Shown: positions 1-28,417 of the stretch, piece by piece
How the letters are laid out: every line of letters starts with the position of its first letter
Position numbering within the stretch: position 1 is the first letter of the stretch
Assembly (NCBI GenBank): GCA_945879075.1
Contig: CAMCUY010000016.1
Coordinates: forward strand, 1-34,422
Source: Akkermansia muciniphila
Lineage (GTDB): Bacteria; Verrucomicrobiota; Verrucomicrobiia; Verrucomicrobiales; Akkermansiaceae
Length of the DNA stretch: 34,422 nt
Reading direction: 5' to 3'
Notes under the pieces: model-generated
What the model saw: only the letters and a program-made list of their open reading frames with translations
What the model was told of the DNA's origin: nothing
Database searches by the model: none
Translations under genes and position numbers: made by a program

Positions 1-2661
1 AAAGCGGCGGAAGGTGGCTATTCCTATCGGTATGTCCCGTTGTTCAGCGCACGCCGCCCGCCGGAAGACCAGCCGAGACTCGCACCGCCGGCGCTTGAGC
101 CGCTGCTTGGAACGGCTGCAAACGAATGGATCGATTTTTCAACCCTGCCTTACATGGACAAAGTGCGGGCGGCGTGGCTGCCGATCAAGGACGAGAAGGA
201 CCGGACCGTCGCCCGCTATGCCTACTGGGTCGAGGATTTGCAGGGCAGGCTCGACCCCGCGCTTGCCGGCAATCTCGGCGGACCGGATCTAACTCACGCG
301 CGCGCCGCCCACCCGTTCCCCGCGCCCGGCCTCAATCCGGACCCCGAGTCGGATGCGGCGGCTCCTCTCAACCAGATCGGCCTTTTCGCCATCGAACCGG
401 CCACCACTTCTGATAGCCAGGGAGCGCTTGGCAAGACATTGGTCGAAAACCGCCGGCTGCTGGTGTCGCCCGGCTCCACGCTCGCCGCCGCCGGAATCAC
501 TCCACCGCTGCTTCGTGACGGAGTCGGCCGTCTCGTCGATCCGAAAGCGCGGGCCGTCGAGGAAAGCCTGGCCGCCAATCTCCAGCCCTATTTCGAGCGC
601 CCGCTCATTCCCTTTGCGCCCGGCATCGATCCCGCCGTCGCGGGTCGGCCGTGCAAGAATCTAAATGCCTTGTTAGCGATGAGTCCGGGCGCCGCCGTCG
701 ATGAAATGGCCGCGTTCGTCCGCGCCGCGCTGCCGGATTTCGACAAGCGCAAGGGCGGCTTTCCCGAGGACTATCTGAAAACCCTGGCAGCCAACGCGAT
801 CGACTACGCGGACGCGGATTCCAATCCGACCCTGAAGCCCGGCGAATGCCGCGGCCTGGATGCGTGTCCGTTGCTGAGCGAGATCGCCCTGCAGGTGAAC
901 TACGCGGGAATCTCCAATCAGCAGGATCGGAAAATCATGACCTTCCGTTTCAAGCTGTTCGCCGAGCTCTGCAATCCGACGAGCCAGCGGGTCGCGGGTG
1001 ATGCGAGGCTCAGCTACGAGGTGGCGCTGCCGATGGACGGCATCGGGGCGGGGATTGGCGGCGAGCCGTTCGATTCGCCGGCCCTCCTCTCAGATCCGGC
1101 AATCGCGAGCCATGACCTCGCGCTCATCAGCGGACGCTACTGGACCCGCCAGGTCCGTGTGGAGCTCGAGCCGAATCAATACCGCTGTTATCTTTTCGCC
1201 GATGTTATCTATCAGATGGATGTGGGCGCCTCGTCGGATTTCATCCCGGATGAAACTCCTTTCAGTCTTAACGAAGCCCGGTCCGAGTCCGGTTTATCAC
1301 TGATGTGGAACGGAAAAGTGTTGGAGCGGGCGGATGGCATCCTGCGTCAGGCCGGCTTGATCTACTCGAAGAAGAACGGCGTTATCACGGGCGGTTTCAA
1401 AACGGGAACCCCGAAAACCCTCACCAAGGCCGCCCTGCCAGGCCATGTTTACGACGACTATCCGACGATGTATTACAACATGGGAGATCCGCGGATGACC
1501 CATTACCTGCGGGCCGCGCCGCTCGACGAGAACGCCTATCCCGAGAATATCAGCCCGAACCGCCGGAACATCCGCCTTGAGATTTACGAGGATGACGTGG
1601 CGGCCAAACCCAAGGTTTACGCGCGCATGCTTCCCTCTGAGTGGCCGGATGGCGGGCACAACGCGGCCGTCGGCGCCTGGTCGCCGGGGGGCAGCGACAA
1701 GACGGAGATGACCGACTCGAAGTTCGATTTTCCGTATGACGCCCAAATGGCGCTGGCCGCGCCGCAGCCGATTTCCAACGGCGGTCGTTTTTACAGCGCC
1801 ACCGAGCTCGGCCGGGTCTTCGATCCGGTCATGCACGCGCCGGCGTTTCCTAGCAGCGCTGAAACCGCCGAGCTCCGTAACAAGGGCAAAATGCCGTCCT
1901 CCCGCTCATCGTGGCCCGATGTTCGCGGCAATCAAGCCAGCCTGTTTTACGGCGGGGGGAACAGCCTGCGCATCGGCCGTCTGGAGCATCCGGATTTCGA
2001 TTTGATCGCCATGCCCGGGCTTCATGCGGCGCGTTTGCTGGACCTTTTCCATGTCGGGCGTTCCCGCTCTGAAAATCCGGCTGAGCGCGAGGGGCCGGTG
2101 ACGCGCGTCGAGGGCCATGTGAATCTCAACACCGCTTCCCGTGACGCGCTCCGCGCGATGGCGGCCGGCGCGCTTGTCATGGACCCGCTGTTAGCCCGGC
2201 GTTCGGGCGGCGACCACCTCGGCGCGCCAAGCATGGCGCCGCCCGTTTCCCCGCTCTCCCTCTCCGCTCCCACCGCGGCCAATGAAGCCGACCGCATCGC
2301 CGATGCGATCATTGACAGCCGGCCCTACCACAGCACCGCGGACCTTGCGCGTGCCGAAGGGCCGGACGGCGTGGCGGTTTTCGGGAACCGCGCGATGTAT
2401 CCGGATGACACTAACATCGAATGGAGCGACGCTGCCGCCGAGGAAATCTTCGCCCGCGTGTATGAGGGCGGCACGGTGCGCTCGCGAAACTTCCGGGTGT
2501 GGATCGTGGCCCAGGCGCTCGCCCCGGGTGCTGCGGCGGAGGTACTCGCCGAGGTCCGGACCGTCCACACGCTGTTCGCGGACCCCGGCGAGCGCGCGGC
2601 TGACGGCTCCATCGTTCCCGGTAAATTCAAAACCACCCTCACCTCCTCCAATGAATTCTAG
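1..2661 (+). CDS. Verru_Chthon cassette protein A-like, GspK-like C-terminus (5' end missing)
   Basis: The frame is open from base 1, so the start lies outside the window and at least 886 residues are present. Near the C-terminus (from about base 2119) is VNLNTASRDALRAMAAG, which resembles the helix-hairpin-helix-type segment of minor pseudopilin GspK proteins. A domain with RNFRVWIVAQAL and FADPGER follows. A very long, Ala/Pro-rich protein with this ending fits the Verrucomicrobia-specific family called Verru_Chthon cassette protein A, which is encoded with pilin-like proteins B, C and D. If so, it would be an envelope protein of a type II secretion or pseudopilus-like machine. That role is inferred from the family, and its partners would lie upstream of the window. 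The final 11 bases overlap the next gene, which suggests translational coupling. I am sure it is a gene and moderately sure of the family. Confidence 0.65.
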   Translation, partial: KAAEGGYSYRYVPLFSARRPPEDQPRLAPPALEPLLGTAANEWIDFSTLPYMDKVRAAWLPIKDEKDRTVARYAYWVEDLQGRLDPALAGNLGGPDLTHARAAHPFPAPGLNPDPESDAAAPLNQIGLFAIEPATTSDSQGALGKTLVENRRLLVSPGSTLAAAGITPPLLRDGVGRLVDPKARAVEESLAANLQPYFERPLIPFAPGIDPAVAGRPCKNLNALLAMSPGAAVDEMAAFVRAALPDFDKRKGGFPEDYLKTLAANAIDYADADSNPTLKPGECRGLDACPLLSEIALQVNYAGISNQQDRKIMTFRFKLFAELCNPTSQRVAGDARLSYEVALPMDGIGAGIGGEPFDSPALLSDPAIASHDLALISGRYWTRQVRVELEPNQYRCYLFADVIYQMDVGASSDFIPDETPFSLNEARSESGLSLMWNGKVLERADGILRQAGLIYSKKNGVITGGFKTGTPKTLTKAALPGHVYDDYPTMYYNMGDPRMTHYLRAAPLDENAYPENISPNRRNIRLEIYEDDVAAKPKVYARMLPSEWPDGGHNAAVGAWSPGGSDKTEMTDSKFDFPYDAQMALAAPQPISNGGRFYSATELGRVFDPVMHAPAFPSSAETAELRNKGKMPSSRSSWPDVRGNQASLFYGGGNSLRIGRLEHPDFDLIAMPGLHAARLLDLFHVGRSRSENPAEREGPVTRVEGHVNLNTASRDALRAMAAGALVMDPLLARRSGGDHLGAPSMAPPVSPLSLSAPTAANEADRIADAIIDSRPYHSTADLARAEGPDGVAVFGNRAMYPDDTNIEWSDAAAEEIFARVYEGGTVRSRNFRVWIVAQALAPGAAAEVLAEVRTVHTLFADPGERAADGSIVPGKFKTTLTSSNEF

Positions 2662-3331
2662 CAGTTTCCTTGTCATGGTCTTGTTGATGTGCCTGGCTCC
2701 ATTACTACAAGGCCAAGATTCCAAACGCGGGCCGGTTGGTTTCGTCCGCATGCTCGATGCCGTGGCGATCGGGACGGGCCGGCTGGAGTTCACGCTCGAT
2801 GGGAAGGCGGTGCGTTCCGCCGGCTATCAGCTGGGCAACGTCACCGGAGGCATCGCCCTGAAGCCTGCGGACTACAAAGTGGTTTTTCGCCGGGAAGGCG
2901 TGAAAGAGGGCGAAACCCGGGTGCAGGTGAAAGTCGGCGACACCATCATCCTCATTCCCTTCGCCGAGGAGATTCCCGCCACCGACCACCAGCCCGCCGG
3001 CTGGCAGATCCGGATTTTAAAATTGAAGCAACACGAGTCGGAAGACAAGCCGACGGCCTCCTTCGTCTCGGTTTCAAGAGAGCCCGAACTCAAGGTGGAG
3101 ATCCGGCAGGCGGATGGGAAATGGGAACCGGTCTTCGTCAAGCGGCTCGGGATTGCGCGGGCGGAAATCCAACAATCGCGTGGCTACCTGTCCGTGCGCT
3201 GCAAGGGGCGGGACCTGTCGGCGGTTTCGGTGGGGGCTGCCGGGAATTTCGTTTCGGTTCTCTACGACGATGAAAACGGCGTGCTTCGGTCGAAGACCTT
3301 TCAGGATTACAAGTATCTCAGCGCGGAGTGA
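2651..3331 (+). CDS. Secreted protein of unknown function
   Basis: The protein has 226 residues. The chosen ATG at 2651 lies inside the end of the preceding gene and gives a typical signal peptide: a short polar start, a hydrophobic stretch FLVMVLLMCLAPLL, then QGQD. An alternative ATG at 2675 keeps most of that hydrophobic segment. The mature part looks beta-rich, with alternating hydrophobic residues and repeated Gly turns around GRLEFTLDGK, LGNVTGG and ADYKVVF. This pattern faintly recalls periplasmic beta-sandwich proteins such as AlgF, but I cannot confirm a family. The overlap suggests it is co-expressed with the large cassette protein and may work with it at the envelope. It converges on the small minus-strand gene that ends 26 bp away. 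Confidence 0.75.
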   Translation: MNSSSFLVMVLLMCLAPLLQGQDSKRGPVGFVRMLDAVAIGTGRLEFTLDGKAVRSAGYQLGNVTGGIALKPADYKVVFRREGVKEGETRVQVKVGDTIILIPFAEEIPATDHQPAGWQIRILKLKQHESEDKPTASFVSVSREPELKVEIRQADGKWEPVFVKRLGIARAEIQQSRGYLSVRCKGRDLSAVSVGAAGNFVSVLYDDENGVLRSKTFQDYKYLSAE

Positions 3332-3357
3332 GGACGGGGCAAACGCGTGATTTTTGC

Positions 3358-3600
3358 TCACCCGCAGGGCGGAGACGCTGCTGAAGGGGGAATCACTGAG
3401 GCCCCGAAATCCGGCCATTCTTCGGTTTGGCTGCCTTCGTTTTTCATGAAGTCGGCCAGGACTTCTTCAGGCGTCATCTTTGCCCAGTAGGCGCTCGCCA
3501 TCAAATGCCATGGATCGTTCGGGTCGTATTTCAACTCCAACGGCAACGGCTCTTCAGGATGATCCGAAGCTTGTGAATCCGAGCGGGTCATGGCGCTCAT
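3358..3600 (-). CDS. Small hypothetical protein downstream of gatB
   Basis: This is an 80-residue, acidic, Pro-rich and probably soluble protein. I start it at the ATG at 3600; a GTG immediately upstream would add one residue. The central part (ELKYDPNDPWHLMASAYWAKMTPEEVLADFM) looks like a small helical domain. No family is recognised. It begins 15 bp after the gatB stop on the same strand, so it is probably the last gene of that transcript. Its position, orientation and sensible composition support a real gene, but there is no homology evidence. Confidence 0.5.
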   Translation of the reverse strand: MSAMTRSDSQASDHPEEPLPLELKYDPNDPWHLMASAYWAKMTPEEVLADFMKNEGSQTEEWPDFGASVIPPSAASPPCG

Positions 3601-3615
3601 CACAAAAAGTTCGAT

Positions 3616-5067
3616 TTACAGCAGCCTCCCCCGCAGCAGTTCGGTGACTTGCTTGGGGTTGGGCTTGGTGGCGGCGGACTTCATGACTTGGCCGGTTAGA
3701 AAATTGAGGAGCTTCTCGTTGCCGGCTTTGACGGCTTCGACTTCGGCCGGGTTGTTGGCGATGACTTGGTCGCAGAGGCCTTCGAGCTCGCCGGCTTCGG
3801 CGGGTTTGAAGCCGAGGCTGTCGGCGATGACGGCGGGGTCTTTCTCCGGGCTGTCGAAGAGCACGGTGAAGACCTCCTTGGCCTGATTCGCGGCGAGGGT
3901 GCCGTTTTCCATCAGAACGAGGAGCGCGCGGAGTTTTTCCGGGGCGACCGGGCATTCGCCGATGCCGAGGGCGCGCTCGTTGAGGGTGCCGAGCAGGTTG
4001 TTGATGATGAAGTTGGCGACTTTTTTGCCGGGGATGGCGGGGTCGGTGACAGCCTCGAAATAGGCGGCGAGGTGCTTGTCGGAGGAGAGGACGGAGGCGT
4101 CGTAGGCGGTGACGCCGAGTTGGTGCTCGAAGCGCGCGGCGAGCTCATGCGGCAGCTCGGGGACGAGCGGGCGGACTTTGGCTAACAACGGCGCGGTTTC
4201 GATGGGCAGGAGGTCCGGGCAGGAGAAGTAGCGGTAGTCGTGGGCGTCCTCCTTGGTGCGCATCATCTGGGTTTCCCCGCGGTCGTCGTCCCAGCGGCGG
4301 GTGGACTGGATTTGCGGGATGCCGCGGTTGAGCTCCTCGGTCTGGCGCATGATTTCGAAATGGATCGCGCGGCGGATCGCGGAGATGGAGTTGAGGTTCT
4401 TGAGCTCCACTTTCTGGCCGAGCGGGTCGGCGGCGTTCTTGCGCAGCGAAATGTTCACGTCGCAGCGGAGCTGGCCTTTTTCCATGTCGGCATCCGAGAC
4501 GCCGCCTTGCTGGAGGATCATCTGGAGCGAGCGGACGTAGGCGAAGGCTTCCTCGCCGGACTCGAGGTCGGGCTCGGTGACGATTTCCATCAGCGGCGTG
4601 CCGGCGCGGTTGAAGTCGATGAGCGACGAGTTCCCGAGGTGGGTGGATTTCGCGACGTCCTCCTCGAGGTGGATGCGGTTGAGGCGGACGGTTTTGTCGG
4701 GGTTGACGATGTTTTTCCGGTGATCGGTCGGGTAGCAATGTTCGTAGAGCGGGACGCCGCCACCGATGCAGAGGGGAAGGTCCATCTGGGTGGTCTGGTA
4801 GTTCTTCGGCATGTCCGGATAGAAATAGTTCTTCCGGTCCCACTTGGAGATTTCCGGCGAGCCGCAGCCGATCATCAGGCCGGTGAGCAGGGTTTTCTCG
4901 ATGGCCTCGCGGTTGAGGACGGGCAGCGCGCCGGGCAGGCCGAGGCAGACGGGGCAGGTGTGGGTGTTGGGGGTGTCGCCGAAGGAGGTGCGGCAGGCGC
5001 AGAACATCTTGGTGTTCGTGTTGACCTGGCAGTGGACTTCGAGGCCGATGGTGACGAGATAGGACAT
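3616..5067 (-). CDS. gatB: Asp/Glu-tRNA(Asn/Gln) amidotransferase subunit B
   Basis: At 483 residues this has the normal GatB length. GatB is the tRNA-binding and kinase subunit of GatCAB. It phosphorylates the side-chain carboxylate of mischarged Glu-tRNA(Gln) or Asp-tRNA(Asn) and transfers ammonia released by GatA. The N-terminus VTIGLEVHCQV is diagnostic, and the zinc-type cysteines sit in MFCACRTSFG and THTCPVCLGLPGALPVLN. Further family motifs are YFYPDMPKNYQTTQ, GTPLMEIVTEPD and the RYFSCPDLLPI region. The C-terminal 130 residues form the YqeY-like helical tail. gatA and gatC are not in the window. It lies 46 bp downstream of the membrane-protein gene, with a small imperfect tandem repeat in between. 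Confidence 0.97.
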   Translation of the reverse strand: MSYLVTIGLEVHCQVNTNTKMFCACRTSFGDTPNTHTCPVCLGLPGALPVLNREAIEKTLLTGLMIGCGSPEISKWDRKNYFYPDMPKNYQTTQMDLPLCIGGGVPLYEHCYPTDHRKNIVNPDKTVRLNRIHLEEDVAKSTHLGNSSLIDFNRAGTPLMEIVTEPDLESGEEAFAYVRSLQMILQQGGVSDADMEKGQLRCDVNISLRKNAADPLGQKVELKNLNSISAIRRAIHFEIMRQTEELNRGIPQIQSTRRWDDDRGETQMMRTKEDAHDYRYFSCPDLLPIETAPLLAKVRPLVPELPHELAARFEHQLGVTAYDASVLSSDKHLAAYFEAVTDPAIPGKKVANFIINNLLGTLNERALGIGECPVAPEKLRALLVLMENGTLAANQAKEVFTVLFDSPEKDPAVIADSLGFKPAEAGELEGLCDQVIANNPAEVEAVKAGNEKLLNFLTGQVMKSAATKPNPKQVTELLRGRLL

Positions 5068-13888: not shown

Positions 13889-15274
13889 TCAAGCCAGGGC
13901 GGTTAGCAGTTTCTCGTGGATGCCGCCGAAGCCGCCGTTGCTGAGCACGGCGATGATGTCGCCGGGCTCGGCGGATTCGGTGACCTTGGCGATGATGGTT
14001 TCGAGGTCGGGCAGATAGAAACCCCGGCCGCCGAGGCGGGCGATGTCGGCGGAGAGTTGGTCGGGATCAAGGCGGTCGTTTTCCGGGATTTTGTGGAGGT
14101 CCGGGATGGCGGCGACGACGGCGAAATCGGCGGCGGCGAGGGCTTCCGCCAGCTCGGTTTGGAAGACGGCGCGGCGGGTGGTGTTGGAGCGTGGTTCGAA
14201 CAGAATCCACAGCCGCGAATCCGGGTGGCGCTGGCGCAGACTCTGGACGGCGAGACGAATGGCGGTGGGATGGTGAGCGAAGTCGTCGATGACCTTGATG
14301 CCGTTGACCTCGCCGCGAAGTTCCTGGCGGCGGGCGACGCCGTCGAAGGATTCGAGTCCGGCGCGGATTTCGTCCGGCGTGAGTCCGGCGAAGGTGGCGG
14401 CGGCGATGGCCATGGCGGCGTTGCGGACGTTGAACTCGCCGGTCATGCGGGTGGAGTAGGGGACGCCGCCGAGGGTGAAGGAGCTGCGGTCCGGTTGGTA
14501 GCTGACACTTTCGATCCGCAGCGCGCAGTTTTCGCCGAAGCCGACGGTGGTGACGGGGCAGGGCGCGCCTTGTGCGACGTCGAGGCAGTTCTGCTCGTCG
14601 CCATTGATGTAGGCCACGCCGCGGCGCGGGACGATGTTGAGCAGGCGGCGGAAGGTGAGTTTGATTTCGTCGAGGTTGTTATAGATGTCGGCGTGGTCGA
14701 ACTCGACGTTGTTGACGACGACGCACTCGGGCAGGTAGTGGAGGAATTTCGAGCGCTTGTCGAAGAAGGCGGTGTCGTATTCGTCGCCCTCGAGCACGTT
14801 GAATTCGGAGTCGGTGAAATGTGCACCGTGGCCGAGGTTTTTCGGCAGCCCGCCGATCATGTAGCCGGGATCGCGGCCGGCGTTGACGAATATCCACGCG
14901 AGCATCGACGAGGTGGTGGTCTTGCCGTGGGTGCCGGAGACGACGAAGTTGCGTTTTCCGCGGAGGAAGAATTCCTTCATCACCTCCGGCAGGGAATGAT
15001 AGAGCAGCTTGCGGTCGAGAGCGGCCTCGGCCTCGGGATTGCCGCGGGAAATGGCGTTGCCGATGATGACGACGTCGGTGTCGGCGGGGATGTTTTCCTC
15101 GGCGTAGCCTTCGGTGAGGGTGATGCCCTGGCCGCGGAGGAAGTCGGACATCGGCGGATAGACGTTGGCATCGGAGCCGGTGACGGTGAAGCCGCGTTGT
15201 TTCATGGCGGCGGCGACTGCACCCATGGCGGTGCCACAGATGCCGGTGAAGTGAAATTTATTCTTGGCGGACAT
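13889..15274 (-). CDS. mpl: UDP-N-acetylmuramate:L-Ala-gamma-D-Glu-meso-DAP ligase
   Basis: This 461-residue Mur ligase reattaches the recycled tripeptide to UDP-MurNAc. The N-terminus HFTGICGTAMGA and SDANVYPPMSDFL are Mpl-type. The ATP loop is VSGTHGKTTTSS. GDEYDTAFFDKRSKFLHY distinguishes Mpl from MurC, which lacks that segment. Further Mur motifs are NNVEFDHADIY, NVRNAAMAIAAA, DDFAHHPTAIR and LFEPRSNTTRR. It indicates peptidoglycan recycling and a Gram-negative-type wall with meso-diaminopimelate. It starts 97 bp after the HAD hydrolase stop on the same strand, so the two could be co-transcribed. Confidence 0.95.
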   Translation of the reverse strand: MSAKNKFHFTGICGTAMGAVAAAMKQRGFTVTGSDANVYPPMSDFLRGQGITLTEGYAEENIPADTDVVIIGNAISRGNPEAEAALDRKLLYHSLPEVMKEFFLRGKRNFVVSGTHGKTTTSSMLAWIFVNAGRDPGYMIGGLPKNLGHGAHFTDSEFNVLEGDEYDTAFFDKRSKFLHYLPECVVVNNVEFDHADIYNNLDEIKLTFRRLLNIVPRRGVAYINGDEQNCLDVAQGAPCPVTTVGFGENCALRIESVSYQPDRSSFTLGGVPYSTRMTGEFNVRNAAMAIAAATFAGLTPDEIRAGLESFDGVARRQELRGEVNGIKVIDDFAHHPTAIRLAVQSLRQRHPDSRLWILFEPRSNTTRRAVFQTELAEALAAADFAVVAAIPDLHKIPENDRLDPDQLSADIARLGGRGFYLPDLETIIAKVTESAEPGDIIAVLSNGGFGGIHEKLLTALA

Positions 15275-24326: not shown

Positions 24327-25262
24327 ATGCCTTCCCCACAGCGCTTTCATCACCGGCAGTTCGCCGATGTGGACGCGTTGGTGGCTTTGAAAAATTCGCA
24401 GCGCGTCTCCGTCTGCATCCCCACGCTCAACGAAGCGGAGACCATCGGCACTATCGTTTCAATCATCCGGGAGACACTCGTGCGCCGCGGGCTGGTCGAT
24501 GAAATCCTCGTCATCGACTCCGGCTCCACGGACACCACTCGCGAACTCGCCGCTGCAGCGGGAGCCGGCGTCCACCTCGCCTCCGGGATTCTTCCGGACC
24601 GGACGGGCTATTGCGGAAAGGGCGAAAACCTCTGGAAAGCCCTCCACGTTTCCAGCGGCGACATCATCTGTTACGTCGATGGCGACATCTCGAATTTCCA
24701 CCCCGGCTTCGTCACCGGACTCGTCGGTCCGCTGCTCGCCGACCCCGCCGTCGACTATGTCAAGGCCTTCTACGAACGCCCGCTGGCCTACGGCGATGAG
24801 TCCCACTCGACCGGCGGCGGGCGTGTCTCGGAAATCCTCATCCGGCCGCTGATCTCGCTGTTCTATCCGGAGCTCGGCGGCATCCTCCAGCCGCTTTCCG
24901 GCGAATACGCCGCCCGCCGCGTGACTCTGGAATCGCTCGCGTTCCCCGTGGGTTACGGCGTGGAAATGGCACATCTCATCGACCTCGCGCGCGACGGGAA
25001 AATCGACCGCATCGCCCAGACCGACCTCGTCAAACGCATCCACCGCAACCGCGACGACGACGAGCTTGGCAGCATGGCCTTCGCCATCCTCCGCGTGGTG
25101 CTCCGCCGCCTGGAGCGCGACGGCAAGCTCACTCTCGCATCTCCCCTGCCCGCTCTCTATCAATCGTGGGCGATCAACGGGGAAAGTATCGAACCGCTCG
25201 CGAAAACCATCCCCGAGCCCGAGCGCCCGCCGGTCCGGGGTGACTCAGGCATGCCTGCCTGA
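24327..25262 (+). CDS. gpgS: Glucosyl-3-phosphoglycerate synthase
   Basis: This 311-residue GT-A glycosyltransferase matches GpgS (family GT81), which transfers glucose from NDP-glucose to 3-phosphoglycerate, giving glucosyl-3-phosphoglycerate. Motifs in order are VCIPTLNEAETIG (29-41), DEILVIDSGSTDTT (58-71), GKGENLW (97-103), metal-binding DGD (118-120), YVKAFYERP (144-152), GGGRVSE (163-169), PELGGILQPLSGEYAARR and GYGVEMAHL. H239 in RIHRNRDDDELG corresponds to the metal-binding His of mycobacterial GpgS. After dephosphorylation the product, glucosylglycerate, is a compatible solute or a precursor of methylglucose polysaccharide. No GpgP phosphatase is recognised beside it. The stop lies in an inverted repeat. 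Confidence 0.88.
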   Translation: MPSPQRFHHRQFADVDALVALKNSQRVSVCIPTLNEAETIGTIVSIIRETLVRRGLVDEILVIDSGSTDTTRELAAAAGAGVHLASGILPDRTGYCGKGENLWKALHVSSGDIICYVDGDISNFHPGFVTGLVGPLLADPAVDYVKAFYERPLAYGDESHSTGGGRVSEILIRPLISLFYPELGGILQPLSGEYAARRVTLESLAFPVGYGVEMAHLIDLARDGKIDRIAQTDLVKRIHRNRDDDELGSMAFAILRVVLRRLERDGKLTLASPLPALYQSWAINGESIEPLAKTIPEPERPPVRGDSGMPA

Positions 25263-25410: not shown

Positions 25411-27543
25411 ATGGCCGGGATGATCAAGGATGCGTTTCTCCACGAACTGCTGGGCCGGATGTCGGTCGAGGAAAAGGCCGGGCAACTCAACCTCCTGACC
25501 GGTGCGATGGACGCCACCGGCATGAAGCATTCGGACGATCTGGAAGCGAAGATCCGCGCGGGCCACTGCGGCGCGGTGCTGAATGTTTACACGCCCGCCG
25601 CCACGCGGGCCCTGCAAGAACTGGCCTTGGCGAGCCCGCTGCAAATCCCGCTGATTTTCGGCTACGACGTGATCCACGGCCAGCGCACGATCTATCCGAT
25701 CCCGCTCGGACTCTCGTGCTCGTGGAATCAGGATCTCATGCAACGCTGCGCCCAGATGGCGGCGGTGGAGTCGGCGGCGGACGGGCTGCACTGGGTTTAC
25801 TCCCCGATGGTGGATATCTCGCAGGACCCGCGCTGGGGCCGGGTGGCGGAGGGCGCGGGCGAAGACCCGTGGCTGGGCGCTCAGATCGCGGCGGCGATGG
25901 TGCGCGGCTATCAGGGAAATGATCTCGCGGACCCTGCCTCGGTGCTCGCCTGCGTGAAGCACTTCGCGCTCTACGGCGCGCCGATGGGCGGGCGGGATTA
26001 CCACACGGTGGACATGAGCCGCCGGGCGATGGAGGAAACGTATTTCCCGCCGTATCGCGCGGCGATCGACGCCGGGGCGCGGACGGTGATGACCGCCTTC
26101 AACGACATCGACGGCATTCCCGCGAGTGCTAACCGCTGGCTGCTCACCGAACTGCTGCGCGGGCAGTGGGGCTTCCAAGGCTGGATCGTGACCGACTACA
26201 CCGCGGTGACGGAAATGAAAAACCACGGCACCGCCGCCACGGACTCGGACGCGGCGCGGCAGTCGCTGGACGCCGGGGTGGACATGGACATGGTGTCGGA
26301 AGCTTTTCTAGCAGGGCTGCCGGGATTGGTGGAATCCGGAGCGGTCAGCGAGACACAAATCGACGCCGCGGTGCTGCGGGTGCTGGGAACGAAGTGGGAT
26401 CTCGGGCTCTTCCGCGATCCCCTCGCCCGCTGCAATCACGAGTCCGCAATTCATCCGAGCCCGGAAAACAGGAAGCTCGCGCGTGAGGCGGCCCGCGAGT
26501 CGATGGTCCTCTTGAAAAACAAAGGCGGTCTGCTGCCGCTTTCGAAACACCAAAACATCGCGCTCATCGGCCCGCTCGCCGACAGCCGCCGCGACATGCT
26601 CGGCTGCTGGATCGCCGCCGGGGATGAAGCCCTCGCCGCCTCGCCGCTCGATGGATTCCGCGAAATGGCGGAGGTGGTTCACGCCAAAGGCTGCGGCATC
26701 AGCGAGGGCAACGAGGATTTGTTAGCAGACGCGGTCCGCGAGGCCAGCCAGGCCGACGTCGTCGTGCTGGTGCTCGGCGAATGCTGGCAGATGAGCGGCG
26801 AGGCCGCCAGCCGGACGGATATCCGCCTGCCGCAATGCCAGCGGGAACTGGCGAAACACATTCTGGAAACCGGCAAGCCCTGCGTGCTCGTCACGATGAG
26901 CGGACGCCCGCTGGAGCTGGCCTGGGAGGACTCGCAGTTTCCCGCCATCCTCCAGGCGTGGGCGCTCGGAACGGAAGGCGGCCACGCGCTGGCGGAGGTG
27001 ATTTTCGGCGACGCCGCGCCGGTCGGAAAACTCACAATGGGCTTCCCCCGCCGCGTCGGCCAGCTGCCGATGACTTACCGCGAGAAACCCACCGGCCGCC
27101 CCTTCGACGCGGCGGTGCAATATTCCTCCAAGTATCTCGACGCGCCTAACGACGCGCTCTATCCGTTCGGCCACGGTCTGACTTACGGGGAATTCCGCCA
27201 CGGCGCGGTGACCATCGACTCGCCGGAAATGCAGCCGGGCGGGACGGTCACGGTCTTCACGGAGGTCACGAATCTCAGCACCCATGCGGCGACGGAGACC
27301 TTGCAGCTTTAAATCCGCGACCTCGTCGCCTCGGTCAGCCGCCCGGTCAAGGAACTGCGCGGCTACCAGCGCGTGACGCTCGCCGCTGGCGAATCGCGGG
27401 TGGTTTCATTCCACATCACCGACGCGGACCTGAGTTTCCCGGGGCGCGATTTCCAGCCAGTGGTCGAGCCGGGGGATTTCGAGGCGATGATAGGCCCGAG
27501 CTCCGCGGAGCTGCGGACGGTGAGGTTTGTGCTGGGTAATTGA
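25411..27543 (+). pseudogene. GH3 beta-glucosidase interrupted by one in-frame TAA
   Basis: Conserved glycoside hydrolase family 3 coding runs from 25411 to a TGA at 27541-27543, but TAA at 27310-27312 stops it after 633 codons. The reading frame continues without shift for 76 more codons (IRDLVASVSRPVKELRGYQR and onward), the usual C-terminal fibronectin-like domain. The family sequence there is LYIRD, so one base change of a Tyr codon explains the stop. Before it are KHFALYG, GRDYHTVD, nucleophile Asp in GWIVTDYTAVTEM (codon at 26194) and GHGLTYGEF, so the catalytic domains are intact. There is no signal peptide, so it would be cytoplasmic. The truncated product may still fold; a sequencing error or read-through is also possible. 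Confidence 0.88.
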
Positions 27544-27560
27544 CCCGGCGCGCCCTGCTT

Positions 27561-27998
27561 TCACGACAGGAGAGGATTCCATACCTTCTCGAAGCCGAAG
27601 CCTTTGAAGTCTCTCACATTCGCTGTGGCAAGCTTGGTGACGCCGTGATGCCGCAGGGTGACAGCTAGCCGGGCGTCGATGATTTGTTGAAATCCGGACT
27701 TCGTTTCAGAGGCCCATTTCCACAAATGGGAGGACACCCTCGAATCGTAGTCAACGCAGCGCCAAAGCGGATTGGTTTTCATGGCTTGGCAGTAATCCGC
27801 CGCTTCCCGGGCAGTGTAGGGTTTTAGAAAGACTGCCCCGTTGCGCAACTGCATGTAGAGTTCCACCAACACCAACTCGCAAACCACGAACTCATCCTCC
27901 AACGAGTCCAATTTAGAGAAAAATTCACGGGCCTTCGCATGACTCAGCGAGTCTGGATCGGCAGCATGGATGAAGAGATTCGTGTCTGCGGTGATCAT
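27561..27998 (-). CDS. PIN-domain toxin, VapC-like
   Basis: This 145-residue PIN-domain protein has the first catalytic Asp in ITADTNLFIH, the conserved Glu in CELVLVELYMQL, an Asp in QQIIDARLAVTLRHHG and a final TANVRDF matching the (T/S)xNxxDF end. Such toxins are Mg2+-dependent endoribonucleases acting on tRNA or rRNA. Its start overlaps the antitoxin stop by 4 bp (ATGA), the standard vapBC arrangement. It lies just downstream of the interrupted GH3 gene, in convergent orientation. Confidence 0.88.
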   Translation of the reverse strand: MITADTNLFIHAADPDSLSHAKAREFFSKLDSLEDEFVVCELVLVELYMQLRNGAVFLKPYTAREAADYCQAMKTNPLWRCVDYDSRVSSHLWKWASETKSGFQQIIDARLAVTLRHHGVTKLATANVRDFKGFGFEKVWNPLLS

Positions 27999-28255
27999 GG
28001 TTGATTCGTCTGGAAGCGGTTCTCCATGGCGAAAGCCTCCGCGTTCACGGAAGAAGGATCAACGAGATGTCCGCCGCTGCCTCGCAATACCGGCATTTTC
28101 CAAGGTGTGGCCTCGTGAGTCGCCTCCGGACAACTCATGACATAGATTTCCATGCCGCGCCGGATGACCTCCGCCACGGAGATATCACGCAGTTGGGCGA
28201 TGCTGCGGAGTCGGCCAAAAAGGGGTTCGGGCAGTTGAATTTGAGTGCGGGTCAC
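27995..28255 (-). CDS. Ribbon-helix-helix antitoxin, VapB-like
   Basis: This 86-residue protein has an N-terminal ribbon-helix-helix DNA-binding domain: TRTQIQLPEPLFGRLRSIA then ISVAEVIRRGMEIYV. The C-terminal 40 residues are polar and probably wrap the toxin. The start is a GTG at 28255 with no Shine-Dalgarno site, consistent with a near-leaderless message from the promoter at 28262-28291. It probably represses its own promoter through the CAATCT/AGATTG inverted repeat. Confidence 0.83.
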   Translation of the reverse strand: MTRTQIQLPEPLFGRLRSIAQLRDISVAEVIRRGMEIYVMSCPEATHEATPWKMPVLRGSGGHLVDPSSVNAEAFAMENRFQTNQP

Positions 28256-28260
28256 GAATA

Positions 28261-28291
28261 CAATCTAATGTCAGCATGAGATTGTCGTCAA
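28261..28291 (-). promoter_or_regulatory. Promoter and operator of the first VapBC-like module
   Basis: On the minus strand, TTGACG (28291-28286) and TAGATT (28267-28262) are separated by 18 bp. Inverted half sites CAATCT (28261-28266) and AGATTG (28279-28284) overlap the -10 region. The predicted transcript would begin almost at the GTG start codon of the antitoxin. Confidence 0.5.
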
Positions 28292-28311
28292 AGTCATTTT
28301 CACGCTCTCTC

Positions 28312-28326
28312 GCGCCTTTTTGCGGC
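28312..28326. repeat. GCCGCAAAAAGGCGC motif
   Basis: GCGCCTTTTTGCGGC is the reverse complement of the GCCGCAAAAAGGCG motif at 9427-9440, and the following CGAAATCTTC resembles CGAAAATCTTC at 9589-9599. It sits in the 162-bp spacer between the antitoxin start and the ABC-2 permease, which otherwise shows no gene. Confidence 0.55.
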
Positions 28327-28417
28327 TCGAAATCTTCGGCCTGCTTTGCCCCGCCAGCCGCCGGACCTTTTCCCTTTGCCTTGCCGCGGGAATGGCTTAC
28401 CAAGAGCGCCCCACCGC

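Follow-up and report, generated by a model that had tools for sequence, protein, structure and literature searches.

An in-frame TAA in place of a conserved tyrosine codon of a BglX-type GH3 beta-glucosidase gene in an Akkermansia muciniphila draft genome

A stop codon within an otherwise intact GH3 gene

From our analysis of a 34,422-nucleotide stretch of Akkermansia muciniphila DNA (the window), which makes up contig 16 of the draft genome of a freshwater-type bacterium (G000; 2.39 Mb, 135 contigs, ∼90% complete), we confirm that a TAA codon replaces a tyrosine codon in an otherwise intact BglX-type GH3 beta-glucosidase gene, and we consider it probable that this is a recent nonsense mutation which has left a young pseudogene or a strain-level null allele. 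The gene lies on the forward strand (positions 25411-27543) and is interrupted at codon 634 (27310-27312). The 633 codons before the stop (25411-27309) encode the (alpha/beta)8 barrel and the (alpha/beta)6 sandwich as well as the initial strands of the Fn3-like domain, and in profile searches this part alone matched PF00933 (E 1.3e-68) and PF01915 (E 3.9e-53). After the stop, 76 sense codons (27313-27540) continue in the same frame up to a TGA (27541-27543), and this tail (27313-27543) carries the remainder of the Fn3-like domain. The 76-residue tail alone matched PF14310 (E 3.9e-20, residues 1-64), whereas profile searches found no PF14310 in the 633-residue product, so that only read-through of the TAA would give a product that has the Fn3-like domain. 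The read-through protein matched all three domains in the order PF00933, PF01915, PF14310 and scored 795 bits against the BglX equivalog NF011678 (cut-off 666). The GC contents at the three codon positions of the tail (0.70/0.46/0.83) are close to those upstream (0.68/0.47/0.84), which is indicative of coding composition. Both D262 and E464, in this family the nucleophile and the acid/base, respectively, precede the stop and are invariant in a 16-protein GH3 alignment. The preserved frame, the domain match, and the invariant tyrosine together far exceed chance; the first-pass annotation was therefore exact in placing the TAA at a tyrosine codon and in describing the next 76 codons as in-frame family sequence.

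Relatives at the stop position

Across the 16 aligned GH3 proteins (39-90% identical), Y634 was invariant. Intact orthologues with 72-90% identity were found in nine of the 73 genus genomes besides G000, and at the aligned codon they read TAC (G061, G001, G009, G072, G067) or TAT (G012, G034, G029, G031), with an inner stop in none of the nine. A stop of this kind, where relatives with intact genes conserve a sense codon, is a feature expected of a nonsense pseudogene. The codon 3' of the stop is ATC in G000 vs. CTC in the two closest relatives (L635I). The strand had been described as LYIRD, which was right as to codon and motif, but the genus mostly reads LYLRD and the isoleucine is a change on the G000 lineage; isoleucine at this position is also found in more distant GH3 proteins.

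The closest relatives that carry a name are draft assemblies from metagenomes, labelled Akkermansiaceae or Akkermansia, and neither the 73 genus genomes nor the genome contigs searched included a relative close enough to date the stop. No second copy turned up when the genome was searched at the DNA level with the 3' end of the GH3 gene, and the only other PF00933 match in the genome (contig C4) was rejected as a substitute since it did not come up among the BglX relatives. Recombination was also rejected as the origin of the stop, for the identity of the G000 tail to G061 and G012 is about the same as in the rest of the gene. Elsewhere in the genus, the identity of the G001 gene (locus L005, contig C9) to its close relatives falls from ∼0.9 to ∼0.7 in its 3' part (from about the window equivalent of 27111 onward), a drop that points to recombination; this part clearly stems from a different lineage. 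G010 holds a tenth orthologue (L103, contig C258, ∼2052-4099), which carries several frameshifts and a TGA while its protein sequence is otherwise kept; this damage is of a different, independent kind, either a pseudogene or indel errors.

Selection on the tail and the age of the stop

We then applied a codon model to the 76-codon tail in five genomes. On the G000 branch, omega of the tail was 0.16, omega = 1 was rejected (2dlnL 14.5), and the value was not above that of the pre-stop part (0.19) in the same analysis. The pre-stop part showed no clear relaxation on the G000 branch in a syntenic set with G061, G012, and G001 (0.14 vs. 0.11, 2dlnL 0.8); another genome set gave 0.19 vs. 0.10 (2dlnL 5.4). 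On the assumption that the arrival of the stop freed the tail from constraint, the free period could have been zero and would have lasted for at most ∼0.27 of the ∼1.0-1.6 neutral substitutions per codon that the branch comprises. Over the branch, we did not find the relaxed constraint after the stop that is expected of a nonsense pseudogene, although an unrelaxed tail is what a very young stop would leave. Purifying selection on the tail leaves three options, a young stop, one that does not exist in nature, and one that is read through, and it fits all three alike. A preserved frame after the stop has the look of a young mutation or of an assembly error, and is by itself no evidence of read-through. 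Among the neighbouring genes, rlmN, gpgS, the ABC permease gene, the Gld-like gene, and the DUF4340 gene showed no clear relaxation on the G000 branch and no inner stops.

A recent nonsense mutation or an error of the assembly

If the base is real in the organism, a tyrosine codon, TAC or TAT, would have mutated to TAA recently on the G000 lineage, and translation would end at residue 633, within a strand (627-637) of the Fn3-like beta-sandwich. The truncated product would retain the two catalytic domains together with roughly one third of the Fn3-like domain, and the half-formed domain would probably render the protein unstable or inactive. Three observations count against the mutation: it is known from a single fragmented assembly, in which a base error would look identical; a second split gene within 164 kb could also reflect a raised error rate; and the part before the stop lacks clear relaxation on the G000 branch.

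The main alternative, which we regard as possible but less likely, is that the stop is a base-calling or assembly error or a mixed-strain consensus artefact, and that the gene of the organism is intact (both weightings, for a real allele and for an error, are judgements and not computed values). An error is favoured by the tyrosine in all intact orthologues, the tail without decay, the fragmentation of the draft genome, and the other stop-split gene; in public assemblies, many pseudogenes with an internal stop have a technical origin, and such stops are common mainly where coverage is low (PMC11017572). Against an error, the adjacent L635I would require a second difference beside the stop, and these two neighbouring base changes (the stop and CTC to ATC) may weakly favour a real mutation. 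The five neighbouring genes tested are likewise without inner stops and show no excess of replacement changes on the G000 branch. Consensus errors from short reads are usually rare.

We also surveyed 164 kb of G000 for split genes with a coding-potential scan. Two cases were supported by coding straight through the stop, no ordinary start behind it, and family support, namely the GH3 gene and an ORF6N-domain gene on the reverse strand (G000:C5:23897-24601; L097 3897-4601), which keeps its frame across an in-frame TAG (C5:24194-24196). The nonsense allele is thus not singular in this genome, and a frequency of two cases per 164 kb would be consistent both with young pseudogenes at their usual load and with an elevated rate of errors. 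An in-frame TAG is also found in the ORF6N copies of G069 and G087. The remaining places flagged by the scan appear to be normal adjacent genes or frames on the antisense strand, and the gene at 13889-15274 (reverse strand) was rejected as a split gene because its relatives match to its end.

Read-through and the truncated enzyme

The first-pass annotation had offered a recent nonsense mutation, a sequencing error, and stop read-through, which is the right set of options, but the last is disfavoured by the tRNA genes, the release factors, the stop usage, and the relatives. That the TAA is suppressed or recoded and the full-length enzyme made at some level is very improbable in our judgement, even though the tail retains its family sequence under purifying selection and in-frame stops with low dN/dS have been argued to be often read through in prokaryotes (PMC7918605). 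No suppressor tRNA was found among 34 tRNA genes in the ∼90% complete genome, none of which has a stop-reading anticodon; the 34th and weakest (C21:31403) had no ARAGORN call, and its anticodon CCG (Arg) was read by eye. RF1 and RF2 are both present as full-length frames, the assignment of one vs. the other having been made by eye from motifs. TAA is an ordinary terminator here, ending 14 of the 56 strongly coding frames surveyed, including in the window rlmN, gatB, and the chorismate synthase gene. No relative has a stop at this site, and TAA was not found to recur inside several genes in the 164 kb surveyed, whose second split gene carries TAG instead. Among stop codons UAA leaks least, and both release factors recognise it. 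We rejected reassignment or suppression of the stop on the tRNA, release-factor, and stop-usage evidence, a rejection that is less than strict for a suppressor since the genome is incomplete. The further idea that the TAA is decoded usefully, with short and full-length beta-glucosidases coexisting and read-through adding the Fn3 domain, is also very improbable. The survey of read-through genes itself regards many in-frame-stop cases as short-lived (PMC7918605).

It is likewise very improbable that truncation after residue 633 leaves a functional two-domain beta-glucosidase, although D262 and E464 both precede the stop and natural two-domain GH3 enzymes (barley ExoI, RmBgl3C) are known (PMC6987092). 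When the read-through protein was modelled with AlphaFold2 (mean pLDDT 81; ∼76-93 by ten-residue blocks over residues 601-640), residue 634 was placed within strand 627-637, so that the cut falls inside a strand of the third domain and not at a domain border, and the strands 649-657, 662-670, 688-695, and 702-708 are lost. The loss of the C-terminal domain claimed earlier is right for most of the Fn3-like domain. Since the cut falls inside a domain, the truncated protein is expected, on the model, to be poorly folded. Y634 and much of the remaining domain are conserved in every relative of the subfamily, and models of relatives place the Fn3 domain and its linker both at the dimer interface and close to the active site (PMC6987092).

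Gene neighbourhood

Upstream of the GH3 gene lies an intact gpgS (24327-25262, forward strand), which encodes glucosyl-3-phosphoglycerate synthase (NF010496, 357.9 bits, cut-off 262). The proposal that loss of the C-terminal domain next to gpgS would link to turnover of glucosides found no support. The gene gpgS precedes the GH3 gene in G000, G001, G012, G061, and G009, and was not found in the 6 kb upstream of the GH3 gene at loci L037 and L038. The product of GpgS is the alpha-linked glucosyl-3-phosphoglycerate, whereas BglX-type GH3 enzymes cleave beta-glucosides. With adjacency in only part of the genus and an alpha-linked product, a functional link between the two genes is unsupported.

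Downstream, on the reverse strand, are a VapC-type PIN toxin gene (27561-27998; TIGR00028, 81.5 bits, cut-off 73.6; PF01850) and its probable small partner gene (∼27998-28261; the pair spans 27561-28279), which has no family match. The gap that separates the GH3 gene from the ABC permease gene (window 27528-28361) differs in gene content among close relatives: it holds the VapC-type pair in G000, other genes in G012 and G061 (of a shared type) and in G001, and almost nothing in G009. The G012/G061 gene is on the reverse strand and by eye resembles a formylglycine-generating-enzyme type protein, and stretches of the VapC gene have matches at other sites in many genomes of the genus. A search of a phage collection gave no match. 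The gene variation in the gap does not visibly bear on the stop.

Significance and comparison with known systems

Most likely this is a recent loss-of-function mutation of an ordinary kind, with an assembly error as a possibility, and not a case of new decoding. Its significance is mainly for annotation, in that the BglX-type enzyme here cannot be counted as functional before a read check. If read through, the protein has the same three-domain order as BglX (NF011678; solved entries 6r5i and relatives, periplasmic beta-glucosidase) and JMB19063 (3u48), and it aligns to 3u48 over residues 7-704 and to 6r5i over residues 6-707 with the catalytic Asp and Glu conserved; in the 3u4a sequence, the Asp aligned to D262 is Asn. 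It differs from BglX and JMB19063 in the in-frame TAA at Tyr 634 and in its N terminus, which shows no obvious signal peptide; its match to NF011678 begins at profile position 34. With ordinary or technical internal-stop pseudogenes (PMC11017572), the gene shares a single internal stop, an otherwise intact frame, and intact relatives. With putative read-through genes (PMC7918605), it shares constrained sequence after the stop; here, however, the stop occurs in a single genome, and its youth can explain the constraint.
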